From a virus: 25,306 nt of DNA. The notes under the pieces are model-generated. The model was not told where the DNA came from, did not search any database, and worked only from the letters and a program-made list of their open reading frames with translations. Shown piece after piece: positions 16,301 through 25,306 of the stretch. The position numbers and the translations under genes are program-made. The stretch lies in the IMG/VR virus record IMGVR_UViG_3300042400_001593, positions 1 through 25,306 of that record. One strand, written 5' to 3'. How positions within the stretch are numbered: position 1 is the first letter of the stretch; each line of letters opens with the position of its first letter.

Positions 16301-16372
16301 ATTCCTTTAAGTGTTACTCAAGATTTTAAGATAGATGTTGGAATAAACTTTAATTTACTTTGTTTACAATGA
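13370..16372 (+). CDS. Large tail-tip/baseplate protein with a P2 gpI-like core and Cys-rich C-terminal region
   Basis: A 1000-residue protein. Residues about 440-475 contain the most telling motif: LNAAYLFKSKG leading into KGTRRSIEILLRLIGAPE (KGTRRSIE at 455-462). This helix with a Lys-Gly-Thr-Arg turn is typical of P2 gpI-like tail proteins, which sit at the tail tip and help attach fibres. Before it, residues about 300-400 are helical (EKYLTTLNEICENL, VEKVLQIYGRSFDEVRKF), as in that family. After it, beta-rich parts lead to NSIFHRQKFVWRRQMGC (824-840) and a Cys group (C840, C848, C851, C862, C868: spacing 7, 2, 10, 5). The last ~100 residues look like a small separate alpha/beta domain. 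Its TGA overlaps the following ATG (ATGA), tying it to the SprB-repeat adhesin. The fibre-anchoring role is inference. Confidence 0.65.
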   Translation: MAVIKYKWPPQVDTGDSSFSDDLVGVQLVAGGGLTNANFEFTTGITEKQNRNFSIGSFSNPISLTDLNIKDIEESKVIVAKNLQVYPNFDLSQITNFTLFGSLTKRISTSITKIINYFPAGIESNQYNLDFITGLTAVNISHNKVLDETYLELPLNWIKNPFDIDFTTNAVRNFELSEVTVSPLRNLTTQYKNYSIFVNGLEYNVVFLDSVDQTDNFLKLYVNGNPFSGLSATTETIVLRPNTLYTEKSFNDFFDEVEKFLLNRLILPIYTATFTVPQENDDGTYTTTSQNISWPLDGVWNLDIRTDNFEKYLTTLNEICENLDSYNTNLISRFLTTGALKEFDTNDRKVEKVLQIYGRSFDEVRKFVMSLANMTSVNYNTGNDIPSQLLKNLAETLGWKTNVSPISNESLLDSIFGTNQESNFPGYSRSLTPDEINYQFYKNLILNAAYLFKSKGTRRSIEILLRLIGAPEALIDFNEYIYIADERINLSQFEKQFTNISFGFYGEQIPVLDPTDVFSIMGVQYTGFTLQTNLSTVTSIREDYPMDNLGYPTAPIETESFFFQIGGGWYESTPDHHMPEQIVQTNELFVGQNPNYQTSLLPFNYGQTYLDRYRKFPFMSLGYDLVKIIDNKKSWTINNIGLRNSSDGGFNAYYRVYDERFVVNVKNVDVFLNPSQGLVYDVWSMSRTYNYPIPNEGLDYVEPTYCNPNPNGPYPNRGGIDWTEINPKPKEKTFFEFAQTFWKNMINVRNRQFITDGKTGGYPTLQSIYWKYLESNTAINIPNDNFTYRSMIDYVNGLGDYWIKLVGQMIPATTLITSGVRLENSIFHRQKFVWRRQMGCQIIPIPCKPCSLVGQLFAVDCPIQKVTCPIYPWIGDPTVTSFAVVLNKLLQDNGYLSPTCNVNSLISTWYVDLILNGNILVHNEFFTGYGNSNPIASYPSQSDWLNALETSLTNLQSEGLNYVINNDDTVTVYNGNCIPLSVTQDFKIDVGINFNLLCLQ

Positions 16373-19300
16373 GTTGTGGGGCAATAAATATAACAAACTA
16401 CAATATAACTGGTGATTGTACTAATTTAGGTTTAGGGGCAATTTCATTCTCAATAACAGGAGGATCACCAAACTATACTGTAAGTGAAATAACAACATCA
16501 GGGTTATTACCTTTATCCTCAAATACAACAAGTTATTCCGCAACAAGTCTAACGGCAGGAACATACGTTTTGGAAATAATTGATAGTTGTTTAGTTTTAC
16601 CCTTAATTCCAAGATATATTGAGTTTACAATTTCTTCTGGCACTTGTGTTTCAATAGAAAGTAGTGGTACTACTTGTGGGTTAAATAATGGAAGTATAAC
16701 CGCAACAACGACAAATTTTTATGGAAATGCGTCATATTATCTATATGAGAACACAATTGGATATATAACAAGTGGTGATAGTTTTTCTAATGTATTTAAC
16801 AATTTATCACCTGGATTTTATTATGTTATTGGTAATGATGGTGGAGGATGTACAGGAAGAAGTGAAGTTTGTTTAATAAAAGAAAGTAATATTCTTGATT
16901 TTGGTTTATATGTTGTTAATGACGCAAGTTGTGTTCCAATAGATGGCACTGGTAAAATATTTGTAACAGGATTAACAGGAAATCCACCATATAGTTATGT
17001 TTGGTCACCAAATGTTATATCACAAACAGGCCCTGAAATAACAGGATTGACATCAGGAACATACACATTAACTATAACAGATTCTGAAGGCTGCTCAACA
17101 ATAAAAAGCGTTATATTGTCAGATGTACCAAATTTAGGGGTTGCGGCAATGTTAACCACAGTACAACCATCTTGTTTTTCAAATGACGGTGAGGTAGACG
17201 TTATTATTTCAGGAGGAACGGCACCATATTATTTTTCAGGATCAAACGGGGAAATAACTATACAATATAGTAATACTTTTACCTTCACAGGTTTGTCTTC
17301 AGGTGTATTTACCGTATCAGTTACAGATGCCGGATTATGTAATGTTGTTAGTTCAGTATCACTTATAACACCAAATGGTTTTATTGTAACAACAATGACT
17401 GTTACAAATTCTAATTGCAACGCAAATGACGGTTCTGTTCATATTGAACTAAATAACGGGTTAGCACCTGGAAATTATCAGTATACACTCCTTGATTTCA
17501 ATGGAGGTAGTACCGTACAAACAACAAATTCAATATGTGATTTTGGGGGACTCGCTAGCGGTAATTATACTGTATTAATACAAGATGTTCCTAATAATTC
17601 TGGTTGTATTTATACTGGAAATTTTACTGTAGTAAATGTAAATAAATATGAAATAAATGTTAGTTATTCAGACACAACTTGTGGACAAAATAACGGTATT
17701 GCAATTATTAGTGCAACTTCAGGTGGTGATCTACCTTTAACTTATAGTTTATCAGGGGGAACCCCAAGTACAACAACAACACAATTAACAAATGTTTTTA
17801 ATAATTTAAGTCCTGGTTTTTATTTGGCTTCAGTAACAGATTCAGGAGTACCTACGTGTACACAAACTGAATTATTTTATATTGCACCATCACAATCTGT
17901 TGATTTTAATTTAGTAACAAATCCACCGATTTTAGGAAATGATGGTGAAATATTTTTAAATATTACTAACGGAACTCCACCATTTTTAGTTAGTTGGAGT
18001 CCTAATGTAGGGTCTCAGACAGGTCTACACGTTACAGGATTAACGAGTGGTGTTTATACAGTTACAGTTGCTGACAGCAATGATTGTGTGAAAACTGAAA
18101 GTGTTTTATTAAAAGGGACGGAAATAACTACAAATTATGTTTCATACACAATTTGTTCTGATAATTTTATTAATACTGAAACTTACGGTAAAAGAGGAAT
18201 CTTACAAATGATGAATGAAGGATTTTTTGACCTAACAAGTGGAGATAGTGGTTGTGTTATTGTAAACGCAACATTTACAACCCAAGTTGAAATTGATGGA
18301 ATTATTAAAGAGGATTTATTTTATACTTACACTGGTGGTTCATTTGCACAATACGCCGACATAATTTGGACACAAAGTCTTAAAAATACTTTAAAAAAAT
18401 ATCCACAAGTTGGTGATGTTATAATTGATATGGCAAAAAATAAAATAACAATAACCAATAAATGTAATGAGGTTATTAAAGATTGTCAGATAACTAATTT
18501 TAATGATTTTGGAGATACTAATGTAAAAATTAATTTATTAATTGACTATTTAATAAATTGTCGAATTTGTGGCAAGGCACCTGAGTGTATAAATTTTATT
18601 GGTACAATGGAATTGATTGAAAACTGTAATAACTTTAATGCTGATATAACAATGTTACCAACCTGTGTTTGTTATATTTTAACAAATAGCGGTAGAGGTG
18701 TTGCTGATTTTGAATATGTAGATTGTCAAACTCAAACATTACAAACTATTACCGTTGGAGACGGATTACAAGAGTATGTTTGTTCTAATGAACCCCCAAC
18801 AATAATTTCAGGGGTAGGTACTATTGTTATTACAGAAAATAATTGTGTTGATGGTGTTTGTATTACAACAACAACAACTGTAGGGCCACCACCAAACTTG
18901 TTAGAATGTGATGTTATTGCAATTACTAATGGTGGAAATAATGTATTCTCATATTACCCATCAACAAATACCGGTGATATATTAACACCTTATATAACTG
19001 GTTGGGTAACAGGATCTGGAGACATTGCTCATACTAACAATAAATTATGGATAAGTAGGGCATCTGCAAGTGCTATAACCGAATATAATATAACATTAAC
19101 ACCTTTTAACGGTACTTATAATAGAGATATACTTATAAATGATTGTTTACTTGGTGCAGGATTAACCGCAATAGACGATACGACGTTAATAACAACAACA
19201 GGAGATACAACAGTCATACCTTTCCAAGAAAGAGTAATTGAGGTTGATATAAGTGGAGTGTTTCCTATTATAACAGATAAATTTTTATTACCTTCAGATA

Positions 19301-19623
19301 GGTCTGTATCCGGAGACATAATTTATACAACAACAAATAAATTAATAGTGACTACAGAAAGTTTAAGCACAATTAATTCTTATATATCACAGTACGATTA
19401 TACTACAGGTATTTTGGAAATAGATATTGATATATCTACAGTATCTAAACCATTTGGTTTATTTACAGACTCAGGTAAAATAACAATAACAAACTCAAAT
19501 GGAAAAATATACACTATAGATGAAACAACACCGTATAATTTAAACTTTTTACAAACCGCACCTGTTACATTTGGTGGGGCTTCTCAAGTCCCATCTTGTG
19601 AAACTATTAATTTTATAATTTAA
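16369..19623 (+). CDS. Repeat-rich phage adhesin: seven SprB-like repeats, middle domain, Thr linker, possible C-terminal beta-propeller
   Basis: A 1084-residue protein. Residues 1-582 hold seven imperfect repeats of about 75-85 residues, each with a Cys near its start, a GG/GxxPY strand and an end of the type 'GLTSGTYTLTITDxxGC'. Approximate bounds: 1-92, 95-170, 178-250, 258-333, 340-422, 428-505, 510-582. This is the SprB repeat pattern (SprB is a Flavobacterium gliding adhesin). A mixed domain follows (about 590-830, with NTETYGKRGILQMMNEGFF). Next come a linker, TTTTTVGPPPN (833-843), and a beta-rich end (ECDVIAITNGGNNVFSYYP onward) whose repeated short blades recall a beta-propeller or NHL-like surface. 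I chose the ATG at 16369 (overlapping the previous TGA as ATGA) over a TTG at 16360. Likely a distal tail adhesin binding a host surface glycan or protein. No signal peptide. Confidence 0.75.
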   Translation: MSCGAINITNYNITGDCTNLGLGAISFSITGGSPNYTVSEITTSGLLPLSSNTTSYSATSLTAGTYVLEIIDSCLVLPLIPRYIEFTISSGTCVSIESSGTTCGLNNGSITATTTNFYGNASYYLYENTIGYITSGDSFSNVFNNLSPGFYYVIGNDGGGCTGRSEVCLIKESNILDFGLYVVNDASCVPIDGTGKIFVTGLTGNPPYSYVWSPNVISQTGPEITGLTSGTYTLTITDSEGCSTIKSVILSDVPNLGVAAMLTTVQPSCFSNDGEVDVIISGGTAPYYFSGSNGEITIQYSNTFTFTGLSSGVFTVSVTDAGLCNVVSSVSLITPNGFIVTTMTVTNSNCNANDGSVHIELNNGLAPGNYQYTLLDFNGGSTVQTTNSICDFGGLASGNYTVLIQDVPNNSGCIYTGNFTVVNVNKYEINVSYSDTTCGQNNGIAIISATSGGDLPLTYSLSGGTPSTTTTQLTNVFNNLSPGFYLASVTDSGVPTCTQTELFYIAPSQSVDFNLVTNPPILGNDGEIFLNITNGTPPFLVSWSPNVGSQTGLHVTGLTSGVYTVTVADSNDCVKTESVLLKGTEITTNYVSYTICSDNFINTETYGKRGILQMMNEGFFDLTSGDSGCVIVNATFTTQVEIDGIIKEDLFYTYTGGSFAQYADIIWTQSLKNTLKKYPQVGDVIIDMAKNKITITNKCNEVIKDCQITNFNDFGDTNVKINLLIDYLINCRICGKAPECINFIGTMELIENCNNFNADITMLPTCVCYILTNSGRGVADFEYVDCQTQTLQTITVGDGLQEYVCSNEPPTIISGVGTIVITENNCVDGVCITTTTTVGPPPNLLECDVIAITNGGNNVFSYYPSTNTGDILTPYITGWVTGSGDIAHTNNKLWISRASASAITEYNITLTPFNGTYNRDILINDCLLGAGLTAIDDTTLITTTGDTTVIPFQERVIEVDISGVFPIITDKFLLPSDRSVSGDIIYTTTNKLIVTTESLSTINSYISQYDYTTGILEIDIDISTVSKPFGLFTDSGKITITNSNGKIYTIDETTPYNLNFLQTAPVTFGGASQVPSCETINFII
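16651..18114 (+). repeat. Protein-coding two-repeat block duplicated within the SprB-like adhesin
   Basis: Repeats 2 and 3 (16651-17118) resemble repeats 6 and 7 (17650-18114) more than their neighbours. Repeats 2 and 6 share TTCGxNNG and VFNNLSPGFY; repeats 3 and 7 share PPxxxxWSPNVxSQTG and TGLTSGxYTxTxxDS. This points to duplication of a two-repeat unit, with repeats 4 and 5 between. The DNA has diverged and there is no exact long repeat. Confidence 0.6.
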
Positions 19624-19653: not shown

Positions 19654-21852
19654 ATGGCATTACAAGTTAACATAACAAATATCACCCAAGCAACATATCC
19701 TGTTGATGTATATGTTTGTAGCGGATGTCCTGATAATAACTGTACTTTAGTTGATACAATTAATTCTGTCCCATCGATAATAACAATACCAGGGCCTTAT
19801 AGTGGATATTCATCTTTTGGTGTAAAAATAATTGATAGTAAAAATTGTGAGTACTGTCAAACTTTTCAATCAGGAACAACTACAACAACAAGCTCTACCT
19901 CAACAACAACAATTAACCCATTATGTTTTAGTTGTGACGTAGGGTTTGATTTTTATGACACTAATCCTATATCTGAAATATCCGTAGGTTTGGTAACCGC
20001 AAGTTGTGATCCTAGTGTTACCGACTATGTAATTGAATGGTATGGACCTGGAATTGGATCAACGACTGTTGCCTTAACATCAGGATATGGAACAGACTAT
20101 ACCGGTGATTACTCATATACCCATCCTTTGACAGGATCTTCTGCAGTACCTGTTGTTGCCGGAATATACACGCCAATAATACAAAAAATTAAACTTAATG
20201 GTGTTGAATATACAGATCTTAATTGTTTTAACTCTACGACAGTTGATGTGGATGCTTTAACTTGTGATAATGGACCAGGATCAACAAACCCTGATTATTC
20301 ACATAGCATTAGTTTTACTGCAAATACAAATGTAACACCACAACCTCTAACAACAACTTTTGTTTTAGACCCAACAAAACCATATTTTGCTTTTAGGTTT
20401 GAGACAGAACTAATTTATGATACTTTAAAGGTTACTTTTTATGGTACTTCATATTCTGACCCAATAGTTATTGAATATATTACTGTTGGTGATGACGCTC
20501 CCCCAACAAATTTAAATTTATCTTTAACCCCAAAAACAGCAAAAACTATATTTTATAATCCATTTAATAATTCTAACTTTGCTAAAGTATTAAATTTAAG
20601 TAATTTTACAATAAATTCTGGTGATTATTTAGAGCTAGAAATAATACCAAACCCAATAAATAATAACACAAATTGGAAGTTATATTGTGAATGTTTAGAA
20701 ACATTTAATTGTGACATATGTTATGATACAAATATAACGCAACCTGTAAAAATTATTGAATCATCAATTAATGTTACTCTTGACTCATGTAATCGTGCTG
20801 ATATAAGTATTGATTTAAGTGCATGTACTAATAGTGACATATATAAATATTTAATGCAAGGAGGTGCTTGGAATAACTTAGCTTGGAATGGTGATTATTG
20901 GGAAAAATTTAGTGAATTAGCCAATAACCTAAGTGCGTCTTTTTATAATAATTGTTCAAGTAGTGGGCCTGCATTTGGTTTACAGTGTAATCCACCATCA
21001 ACATCAACAATTACTTATGATAAAATAATTTCTGGAGGCCAAGGATTAATTACAATGACATTTACAAATTACAATGATATGTCGGATTTATATAATGATT
21101 GGCAATTAAAGTACATCTCATATTCCGGTAATCCAACAGATTGTAATGATCCTGATTATTATAGATTTTTTAAAATAAAAATACCTTTGGCGGTGGGAAC
21201 TCAAAATTGTGGAGATTTAACAGGGTATCAAGATTATTATATTCACCCATCGGCTTTGGTTACAAGTGGAGGAACGGGTCCTTGGACAATTTCAATTACA
21301 ATGCCAACAATTACAGATTGTATAACATATAATATTTGTGATTTTAATTGTCAAGATAGTAAACAATCAATAATTGATTATATAAATGAAAGCTCAACAG
21401 GAATTACTAATAATATATCAATAACTAATAATGTAGGTTCTAGATTAGATGGATTAGTGGAGTCAACTGGAATATTTAAAATTAACTCAACTATTTTTAG
21501 TGCTGCAACTTTATTTAGTGGTGCTTTTTTACCTAAATATACTAACCAAACAATTCCTTATTCAGGTTCTCCATTAACTATAATACCATCTTTAAGTGCT
21601 GAAACATGCTCTCTTAGTGATTGGAAACTTGTTCCAGGTAATCCATTACTAAATAATGATTATTACATATATATGGCATATCAGTATAAAATTATAATGG
21701 TTAATCCTTTAGATAATGAAGATTTTGAAATTTGGGCTCCAACCTTTATAAACGGAGCATGGGTTGGTTATCCTTCACCCCCAATTTATAATAAAATATA
21801 TGACTATATTGGAGGAGTTGCAACGATATATGACTCAAATTATTTTATATAA
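19654..21852 (+). CDS. Large modular virion/fibre protein sharing its N-terminal module with the 102-aa protein
   Basis: A 732-residue protein. Residues 1-72 are an Ig-like or beta module (YPVDVYVCSGCPDNNCTLVD, SIITIPG, VKIIDSKNCEYC) plainly similar to the whole core of the next, 102-residue protein. A Thr/Ser linker (GTTTTTSSTSTTT, 74-86) joins it to a Cys-containing beta region. Later segments (about 200-400) look like carbohydrate-binding or Ig sandwiches, and a Trp-rich part near 425-445 (QGGAWNNLAWNGDYW) could bind ligand. A hydrophobic or Tyr-rich end (NNDYYIYMAYQYKIIMV) closes it. No family is recognised beyond the module. The ATG at 19654 has a pure A/T leader plus one C, with no Shine-Dalgarno. 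TAATG joins it to the 102-residue gene. A virion fibre or adhesin role is inferred from composition, context and the linker shared with neighbouring adhesins. Confidence 0.65.
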   Translation: MALQVNITNITQATYPVDVYVCSGCPDNNCTLVDTINSVPSIITIPGPYSGYSSFGVKIIDSKNCEYCQTFQSGTTTTTSSTSTTTINPLCFSCDVGFDFYDTNPISEISVGLVTASCDPSVTDYVIEWYGPGIGSTTVALTSGYGTDYTGDYSYTHPLTGSSAVPVVAGIYTPIIQKIKLNGVEYTDLNCFNSTTVDVDALTCDNGPGSTNPDYSHSISFTANTNVTPQPLTTTFVLDPTKPYFAFRFETELIYDTLKVTFYGTSYSDPIVIEYITVGDDAPPTNLNLSLTPKTAKTIFYNPFNNSNFAKVLNLSNFTINSGDYLELEIIPNPINNNTNWKLYCECLETFNCDICYDTNITQPVKIIESSINVTLDSCNRADISIDLSACTNSDIYKYLMQGGAWNNLAWNGDYWEKFSELANNLSASFYNNCSSSGPAFGLQCNPPSTSTITYDKIISGGQGLITMTFTNYNDMSDLYNDWQLKYISYSGNPTDCNDPDYYRFFKIKIPLAVGTQNCGDLTGYQDYYIHPSALVTSGGTGPWTISITMPTITDCITYNICDFNCQDSKQSIIDYINESSTGITNNISITNNVGSRLDGLVESTGIFKINSTIFSAATLFSGAFLPKYTNQTIPYSGSPLTIIPSLSAETCSLSDWKLVPGNPLLNNDYYIYMAYQYKIIMVNPLDNEDFEIWAPTFINGAWVGYPSPPIYNKIYDYIGGVATIYDSNYFI

Positions 21853-23460: not shown

Positions 23461-24438
23461 ATGAAAGATATTGTATTTGTAACCGCACAACCTGATGTAC
23501 CCTATTTTCATTGGCAGGCAAAATTGTACGTACATAATTTTATTCAAAAAGGAATAGATCCTAAAAATATTCATGTAATTTTTGCGATGGTACATGGATC
23601 TAAAAAACCAACAGAAGAGGCATTAACTTTAAAAAAATTTGGAATTAATGTTCATTTTTATGAAGATAATAGAGATATTAAAACATATATACCAAGTATT
23701 AAACCTTATTTAATTTCTAAATGGTTAGAAGAATACCCTCATTTTGGTAAATTGTTTTTTTTACATGATGCTGATATTATATTTAACTACTTGCCAAATT
23801 TTGAAGATCTATTAAATGATGATATAACATATCTTTCAGATACAATAGGTTACATTGGATATAACTACATTATGGACTGTTGTAATAGATATGAAACACA
23901 ACACCCAAACTCAAAAAAAGGTCAATTATTGCAAGAAATGGTTGATGTTGTTGGCGTTACGGTAGAATGTGTAAAATGTAATCAAGAAAATTCAGGAGGA
24001 GGACAATACCTTATAAAAAACACAGATTATATGTTGTGGAAAAAAATTTACGACGACTGTTCCCCGTTATATTATAAAATGCTAGATTATCAAAAAAGAT
24101 TTCCAATAAACCCAGGACAAATACAGTTTTGGACTGCAGAAATGTGGTCATTACTTTGGAATCTTTGGTTAAATGGTAATGAAACAAAAATAACAAAAGA
24201 ATTGGACTTTTCTTGGGCAACTGACAAAGTTCAAATCTATGCAAAAAAACCAATACTACACATGGCAGGAGTAACAGACAATTTAAAGAATACTAAATTC
24301 TATAAAGGCGATTTTATTAATGTAAATCCGATAGAAAAATTAAGAAATGATAGTACCTATTTTGATTATGTTGAAAAAGATAGCTCGACAATCAAATATA
24401 TAGATGTTATGAAATCTTTCATTGAAAACAATAAATAA
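23461..24438 (+). CDS. Glycosyltransferase, GT-A type, resembling the HPAT/SERGT O-glycosyltransferase group
   Basis: A 325-residue soluble protein. It opens with a strand, MKDIVFVTAQPD, typical of the nucleotide-sugar half of GT-A enzymes. LFFLHDADIIF (98-108) contains the DxD metal and sugar-nucleotide motif (D103-A-D105). SGGGQYLIKNTDYMLW (178-193), WTAEMWSLLWNLW (224-236) and LHMAG (266-270) follow, in the order seen in plant hydroxyproline arabinosyl- and serine galactosyltransferases, where the late His helps bind the metal. The family call is from memory of these motifs, so donor and acceptor are unknown. Cys pairs at 140-141 and 170/173 are unusual. The gene lies between a tail fibre gene and a Thr-Pro-rich adhesin gene. 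A role in glycosylating phage fibres is plausible; altering host surface sugars is the main alternative. The ATG at 23461 follows TTTTATCT, with no Shine-Dalgarno. Confidence 0.75.
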   Translation: MKDIVFVTAQPDVPYFHWQAKLYVHNFIQKGIDPKNIHVIFAMVHGSKKPTEEALTLKKFGINVHFYEDNRDIKTYIPSIKPYLISKWLEEYPHFGKLFFLHDADIIFNYLPNFEDLLNDDITYLSDTIGYIGYNYIMDCCNRYETQHPNSKKGQLLQEMVDVVGVTVECVKCNQENSGGGQYLIKNTDYMLWKKIYDDCSPLYYKMLDYQKRFPINPGQIQFWTAEMWSLLWNLWLNGNETKITKELDFSWATDKVQIYAKKPILHMAGVTDNLKNTKFYKGDFINVNPIEKLRNDSTYFDYVEKDSSTIKYIDVMKSFIENNK

Positions 24439-24441
24439 TTG

Positions 24442-24448
24442 TATTTAT
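24442..24448 (+). promoter_or_regulatory. TATTTAT element upstream of the Thr-Pro adhesin gene
   Basis: TATTTAT followed by AATTAAAAAAAG, 15 bases before the GTG start at 24464. Spacing is nearly the same as for the copies before 3336 and 22184. Candidate promoter element. Confidence 0.3.
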
Positions 24449-24463
24449 AATTAAAAAAAGAAA

Positions 24464-25306
24464 GTGGGATCAACAGAACGACCAAAACCAAGTATTGCAC
24501 CAAGAAATGAGTGTGATGTCATCACAATATTTCCAATGGGAGCAAAGTGTTTTACAAAAGAACCTACTAATGTTACAACATTTGATGGGGCCGTTTCTGT
24601 TGGGGTTACAGGAGGTACACCTCCATACACAATAGCTTGGGAAAATGGTAACGTAGCTCCTGCAATATCTAATTTAGGTGTTGGAGAATATCCAGTAACA
24701 ATAACAGATTCTTATGGTGATTTTGTTGTAAACACAACTTGTGTTATAGTTGCTACCGCATTACCAACTCCGACACCAACTCCGACACCAACAATAACTC
24801 CGACACCAACAATAACTCCAACACCAACAACCACACCAACAACCACACCTATACCAAGTTTAACACCTTCAACAACTCCAGAACCATTAATATGTTTTAC
24901 GACTGATTCAGAAACTACAGGTGAAATATACACGGTAATACCATCAAATAATAATTTTAATGGAAAACCATCATATGTTGTTGTTGGAAATCCATTCGAC
25001 GCTTATGTTTGGTGGAATTTATCGGCAAATAGGTGGGAAATGACAACATTTTTAGGTGGCGGTTTACTACTTGCGTATTTACCATCCACCAATAATTATC
25101 CTGTTGATAATACTGTTGATTGGGTTGATGTTAGAGTTACTTATATGTTAACATCATACGGGTTGTGTGATTATCCACCAACAGAAATTTGTTTTTTAGT
25201 TGAAAAAAATGAAAACAGTACTTTAGTTTCTTGCACTGGAATTATTGTTGGTACTTATAATAATAAATTCTTTTATCAAATTAATAATACAACAGTATCT
25301 CCATCT
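24464..25306 (+). CDS. Adhesin with one SprB-like repeat and a Thr-Pro stalk; 3' end outside window
   Basis: An open frame of 281 residues runs off the end of the window. An in-frame TAA at 24452 limits the start. The GTG at 24464, after a purine-rich AAAAAAAGAAA leader, gives MGSTERPKPSIAPRNECDVI; the next in-frame ATG (about 24536) would cut into the first domain, so GTG is preferred. Residues about 43-95 form a SprB-like repeat (VGVTGGTPPYTIAWENGN, LGVGEYPVTITDSYGD). Residues 101-141 are a Pro/Thr stalk (PTPTPTPTPTITPTPT and on). A third domain follows (about 143-225, with GKPSYVVVG, YVWWNLSANRWEMTTFLGGG), Trp-rich and possibly ligand-binding, then a Cys-containing segment. Probably a tail fibre or adhesin; the stalk would be an extended, perhaps glycosylated, spacer. 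The glycosyltransferase gene ends 25 bases upstream. Confidence 0.7.
   Translation, partial: MGSTERPKPSIAPRNECDVITIFPMGAKCFTKEPTNVTTFDGAVSVGVTGGTPPYTIAWENGNVAPAISNLGVGEYPVTITDSYGDFVVNTTCVIVATALPTPTPTPTPTITPTPTITPTPTTTPTTTPIPSLTPSTTPEPLICFTTDSETTGEIYTVIPSNNNFNGKPSYVVVGNPFDAYVWWNLSANRWEMTTFLGGGLLLAYLPSTNNYPVDNTVDWVDVRVTYMLTSYGLCDYPPTEICFLVEKNENSTLVSCTGIIVGTYNNKFFYQINNTTVSPS
24764..24847 (+). repeat. Tandem 12- and 18-base repeats encoding the Thr-Pro stalk
   Basis: Two copies of CCAACTCCGACA (24764-24787), then CCAACAATAACTCCGACA and CCAACAATAACTCCAACA (24788-24823), then two copies of CCAACAACCACA (24824-24847). All units are multiples of three, so gain or loss changes stalk length without a frameshift. 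The opposite strand shows a spurious Val-Gly frame caused by this repeat. Confidence 0.85.

Follow-up and report, generated by a model that had tools for sequence, protein, structure and literature searches.

A phage glycosyltransferase among baseplate and adhesin genes

The locus studied here raised the question of what a predicted glycosyltransferase modifies when its gene lies among the adhesin genes of a phage. The stretch of DNA analysed (the window) was a 25,306-base IMG/VR virus record, which started with the end of a ribonucleotide reductase gene and contained T4-type baseplate wedge genes, indicating that it is a piece of a baseplate/adhesin region from a myophage. The window's proteins carried SprB repeats, which pointed to a Bacteroidota host. 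As its 1000-aa tail protein had no match among 50,697 isolated phage records, the window's own lineage is uncultured.

The enzyme gene (23461..24438, + strand) encoded 325 aa and carried all of the landmarks attributed to it in a preliminary description of this DNA: the DxD motif DAD (residues 103-105; 23767..23775), GGGQYLI (residues 179-185; 23995..24015), WTAEMW (residues 224-229; 24130..24147) and LHMAG (residues 266-270; 24256..24270), all on the + strand. Within these motifs D103, D105, G180, Q182, W224, M228, H267 and G270 were invariant across Bacteroidota and Bacillota members, as scored in alignments of 31 and 25 sequences, and H267 probably occupies the metal-ligand position of GT-A enzymes. 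The sole family matched by the protein was phrog_4417, a 'prophage pi2 protein 34'-like family of unknown function, which it matched over its full length (E=1.4e-65; residues 6-319 against profile positions 3-290 of 293). No family was matched in Pfam or NCBIfam, and PDB sequence searches with both the protein and the profile returned no match.

An AlphaFold model built with 31 sequences had a pLDDT of 95.4 and a pTM of 0.93. The top Foldseek matches to this model in the PDB were all GT-A enzymes (E about 1e-6, TM 0.42-0.47), including WbbM, glycogenin, ABO transferase, xyloside xylosyltransferase and UGGT, and a search of BFVD matched a relative, orf49 of phage LP65, at a TM of about 0.7. The predicted fold was therefore GT-A, as had been proposed from motifs, and by modelled fold and DxD motif we regard the protein as a GT-A glycosyltransferase whose catalysis is predicted. 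A common GT-A fold, the DxD motif and a C-terminal His link it to the GT8 enzymes (glycogenin, xyloside xylosyltransferase), the GT6 ABO transferase and UGGT, but it shares about 10% identity with GT8 and other GT-A enzymes, at the TM values given above and with no Pfam match. Membership of GT8 by sequence was ruled out, as Pfam GT8 matched neither the window protein (E<=1) nor any relative (E<=0.1), and the likeness is one of fold only.

Threonine tracts in the window and its Bacteroidota relatives

Three of the window's genes had been singled out for Thr-rich stretches that might accept O-linked sugars. The stalk gene directly downstream of the enzyme (24464..25306, + strand; GTG start, open at the window end at 25306) encoded a SprB-like (E=3.3e-6) and Hoc-like (E=2.4e-4) repeat together with the expected Thr-Pro stalk, a (TP)n array of 39 residues (101-139; 24764..24880, + strand) that was equalled in 0 of 5000 residue shuffles. 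In the second gene (19654..21852, + strand), which encoded a 732-aa putative virion/adhesin protein, the linker GTTTTTSSTSTTT was present as described, and its Thr/Ser run TTTTTSSTSTTT (residues 75-86; 19876..19911, + strand), written in mixed Thr codons, was likewise beyond chance (0/5000 shuffles). The third gene, for an SprB-repeat adhesin (16369..19623, + strand; SprB E=6e-18), did contain TTTTTVGPPPN, but the run of five threonines (residues 833-837; 18865..18879, + strand) was matched in length by 958 of 5000 shuffles because the protein is so Thr-rich. We therefore rejected this run as evidence of glycosylation, and the adhesin is a weak acceptor candidate.

Relatives of the window were gathered via the 1000-aa tail protein, divided by enzyme presence and dereplicated, giving 26 loci with the enzyme and 12 without, many of the records being fragments. 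Thr runs of five or more residues occurred in 22/26 loci with the enzyme compared to 3/12 without (p=6e-4), whereas (TP)n stalks were about equally frequent in both (23/26 and 10/12, p=0.64). The same held for single genes: among homologues of the stalk gene, poly-T (Thr/Ser) runs were present in 45 of the 72 accompanied by the enzyme and in none of the eight lacking it, five of those eight having kept (TP)n, and homologues of the 19654 protein had Thr/Ser runs in 5/10 cases with the enzyme and 0/6 without. Since (TP)n was equal with or without the enzyme and poly-Thr runs were not, the acceptor that co-varies with the enzyme is poly-Thr rather than Thr-Pro, and the Thr-Pro stalk, which had been put forward as the tell-tale acceptor, was rejected as diagnostic. 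The best acceptor candidate within the window is the 19654 protein; the (TP)n stalk is a possible acceptor, though not an enzyme-dependent one.

These comparisons bear on an alternative in which the enzyme is a plant-type arabinosyl- or galactosyltransferase, similar to HPAT or SERGT, with the Thr-Pro stalk encoded next to it as its substrate. HPAT and SERGT (plant hydroxyproline O-arabinosyltransferase and serine galactosyltransferase; GT95/GT96) resemble the proposed enzyme in acting as peptide O-glycosyltransferases on low-complexity motifs, and the position of the stalk gene directly 3' of the enzyme fits such a reading. The window enzyme comes from bacterial phages, however, and its proposed substrate is poly-Thr, not hydroxyproline. 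Pfam HPAT weakly matched one of 25 relatives (E=0.0058) but neither the window protein nor any of ten further relatives, so that the HPAT/SERGT resemblance noted in the preliminary description is a weak lead and not membership. With (TP)n failing to co-vary with the enzyme, and with PDB fold neighbours such as glycogenin, ABO transferase, xyloside xylosyltransferase and UGGT, we consider this alternative unlikely.

Tracts tied to the enzyme were also found away from its gene. A 274-kb relative had tracts in 10 of 323 genes, five of the ten being no more than six genes away from the enzyme (p=6.5e-6), and one belonging to the tail sheath, 47 kb away. Across relatives (L506-L526), the linker of the tail sheath had Thr runs in 15/17 records with the enzyme, two sheaths lacking a run despite it, and in 0/3 without; in those three an unrelated insert occupied the position of the Thr-rich linker. 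One Bacteroidota contig group (L157-L159, L169) had the enzyme and no tract in nearby genes, which may reflect either a distant acceptor or another substrate. In several Bacteroidota relatives (L443, L447, L433) the module of stalk genes and enzyme was apparently inverted relative to the tail genes.

Poly-Thr tails on head and tail proteins of Bacillota phages

Homologues of the enzyme were identified by tblastn in 74 isolated-phage records, from phages of Lactobacillus, Enterococcus, Staphylococcus and Lactococcus as well as one Arcanobacterium and one Chryseobacterium phage, and also in many viral contigs and prophages. No mycobacteriophage was among the 74 records matched. In bacterial genomes the enzyme was rare, with 3/300 in one order and 1/297 in a Bacteroidota sample, a known carrier being counted in each.

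Major head and tail proteins encoded next to the enzyme in Bacillota phages bore C-terminal poly-Thr tails such as TTTTTTKPTTTTTTT and TTTTTTKPTTTTTTTQA, and the major tail protein (orf50) of bIL285, a prophage of L. lactis IL1403 whose enzyme is orf45, carried TTTTTTTTT near its C terminus. By PHROG, the Thr-tailed carriers were major tail proteins (phrog_238, phrog_88) and major head proteins (phrog_544, phrog_10). After dereplication to enzymes <90% identical to one another, 48 of 49 Bacillota loci had a C-terminal Thr tail in some gene no more than eight genes from the enzyme, which in 40 of the 48 was the gene directly upstream. In the enzyme-free control loci, such a tail was found in 1 of 728 genes.

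The pairing also held within families of homologues. In one family of major tail proteins (54-80% identical to the query), the Thr tail was present in 14/14 with the enzyme and 0/66 without, or 14/14 and 0/40 when restricted to records with adequate flanks. On the best tree of these proteins enzyme presence changed nine times, three of the changes being forced by well-supported branches. In all three independent pairs on such branches the Thr tail differed in the same direction as the enzyme, on a tree that is weakly resolved overall and with a sign test that is not significant for three pairs alone. Major head proteins 84-86% identical to Thr-tailed ones occurred with neither tail nor enzyme. 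Enzyme absence was confirmed over whole records for 40 control records, 32 with a major tail protein of the above family and eight with the major head protein. A different style of tail was seen in Lactobacillus herelleviruses, with KPTTVAPTTV in SAC12B and TTTETQTQTQ in LP65, whose neighbouring orf51 bears an annotation as a virion protein detected by mass spectrometry. A single enzyme-free record (L388) had kept a TTTTTTTTTT tail on a 105-aa protein of the head-tail region while its major tail protein was tailless, possibly a case of recent enzyme loss.

Chromosomal relatives in lanthipeptide-like clusters

Homologues encoded on the chromosomes of Chitinophaga, Pedobacter, Mucilaginibacter and Sphingobacterium were longer proteins. 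In Sphingobacterium detergens (L230) the glycosyltransferase domain sat in a two-part protein, with lantibiotic dehydratase N and C domains, HlyD and a C39-peptidase ABC exporter as neighbours and an 81-aa putative precursor ending in CDTTTTTTTTTTTTTKAPAVIL, with a 13-threonine run near its end; this region (L230:4253-14823) is a candidate glycosylated lanthipeptide cluster. A simple C39 motif was found in 19/33 chromosomal loci, and a small ORF with a GG leader and a clear Thr run in only 2/33, so the lanthipeptide-like context is suggestive only in favouring a peptide substrate for the enzyme. In a 582-aa Chitinophaga homologue (L191:10001-11749) the C-terminal part formed a further domain that matched Glyco_transf_7C (E=2.9e-7), giving two glycosyltransferase domains in one RiPP-like gene.

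An alternative that keeps virion proteins as the substrate is that the sugar is placed elsewhere on them, the poly-Thr serving as a flexible spacer or as an ice-binding-like or adhesive surface. No glycosite is known, and the style of the tracts varies (TTTTTT, TTVKP, TTTETQTQ), both of which would suit this reading. Against it, the tract itself co-varied with the enzyme on unrelated carrier proteins, and Thr-run precursors accompanied the same enzyme in lanthipeptide-like clusters. We find it quite unlikely.

Gene context and codon usage

Many phage glycosyltransferases modify the host envelope. It could be argued from this common activity that the present enzyme does the same, in seroconversion or superinfection exclusion, and that the Thr tracts are unrelated structural spacers. 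Its genomic setting speaks for another role. In Enterococcus, Lactobacillus, Lactococcus and Staphylococcus phages and in Bacillota prophages, the enzyme gene lay directly 3' of a major head or tail protein gene; more generally it was located within or near the structural module, as in phage virion-glycosylation systems. Homologue neighbours of known function were virion or RiPP-like genes, and no polysaccharide locus was noted in this non-systematic annotation of the neighbours. This context disfavours a role in host polysaccharide modification, and the placement of the gene inside the head/tail module, usually directly behind a head or tail gene, together with tracts that come and go with it at fixed sites of homologous proteins, makes a host-envelope substrate very unlikely.

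One database name in these modules was misleading. In phiFL2B (GenBank GQ478085) gp49 (L083:5995-6903) is the enzyme misnamed 'major tail protein', the true one being the Thr-tailed gp48 directly upstream, and the homologues in VPE25 and VFW are named 'prophage pi2 protein 34'.

Thr codons within tracts were mixed, with 174 of 560 neighbouring pairs identical where 192 were expected, which indicates selection at the protein level and led us to reject an origin of the runs as DNA microsatellites. That the runs are such microsatellites or chance low complexity, associated with the enzyme through inherited phage relatedness only, draws on the Thr-rich proteins of these Bacteroidota phages and on the T5 run of the 16369 gene, which was within chance, but is scarcely credible given the codon mixture without excess of identical neighbours, several joint gains or losses of enzyme and tail on one tree, and the recurrence of the pairing across head and tail protein families that are unrelated.

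A proposed mechanism for glycosylation of poly-Thr tracts

We consider it highly likely that the enzyme is a phage-encoded protein O-glycosyltransferase that modifies poly-Thr tracts in virion proteins encoded by the same phage. The proposal is directly backed by the GT-A fold, the invariant DxD and His, the virion-gene context, and Thr tracts gained and lost with the gene. Because the enzyme has a GT-A fold and is nearly confined to phages with Thr runs in their head or tail proteins, it is very probable that phages with a phrog_4417 enzyme glycosylate their own particles. This agrees with the central suggestion of the preliminary description, that the phage decorates its own virion proteins, which gains support from the virion-gene neighbours and from a tight coupling to poly-Thr across two phyla. 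Its wording as fibre glycosylation proved too narrow, since the predicted acceptors extend to the major proteins of head and tail and to the tail sheath.

In the proposed mechanism, a cytoplasmic GT-A enzyme would use a nucleotide sugar as donor and link the sugar to Thr (and Ser) hydroxyls within low-complexity poly-Thr tracts; its substrates would be virion proteins of the same phage, modified before or while particles assemble. The acceptor tracts of Bacillota phages would be the C-terminal tails of major head and tail proteins. Those of the window's Bacteroidota lineage would be linkers, located in the tail sheath and in adhesin/stalk proteins, which in the window means the 19654 protein. 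Particles would thereby acquire a mucin-like surface brush of glycan-coated Thr residues. For this scheme we infer the reaction, the donor sugar, the exposure at the surface and the benefit, which may be shielding, protease resistance or stiffness.

A broader reading, which we favour with some reservation, is that the tract and the enzyme form a portable pair of tag and writer. Nearly any protein on the outside of the virion, be it in head, tail tube, sheath or adhesin, could bear a Thr tract, and one dedicated phrog_4417 enzyme would glycosylate it, producing a mucin-like coat in phages of at least two bacterial phyla, and the same domain would modify Thr-run peptides in Bacteroidota lanthipeptide clusters. 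The presence of the enzyme domain alongside such peptides would then mark the family as a general poly-Thr writer.

Relation to known systems and implications

Virions of the mycobacteriophages Che8, Corndog and Myrna are glycosylated on capsid and tail-tube proteins by phage-encoded glycosyltransferases, with reduced antibody binding reported, according to the passages of PMC12363180 that cite Freeman et al. 2023. The glycosyltransferase genes of Corndog are located in the structural region (PMC4351075). Judged from its genes, the present system would work in a similar way, having a phage-encoded glycosyltransferase near virion genes. It differs in its hosts and in a homopolymeric Thr tract that is gained and lost along with the enzyme, and whereas Corndog has several glycosyltransferases and an O-methyltransferase, here a single phrog_4417 enzyme with a GT-A fold is present. 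In the literature searched, most subscription journals lying outside the search, no paper described poly-Thr tails together with this enzyme, and the pairing of a poly-Thr tag with its writer may be a new variation on known phage virion glycosylation.

The analysis provides a testable function for phrog_4417, a widespread phage family previously without one, and predicts the exact sugar-bearing virion residues in cultured phages: Lactococcus bIL285 and 1706, Enterococcus phiFL1 and VPE25, Lactobacillus Bacchae and Chryseobacterium MA9V-3. If the proposal is true, a short transplantable glycosylation tag together with its writer would make a useful tool enzyme, and virion glycosylation would be far more widespread than the mycobacteriophage cases, with a simple Thr tail predicting it.
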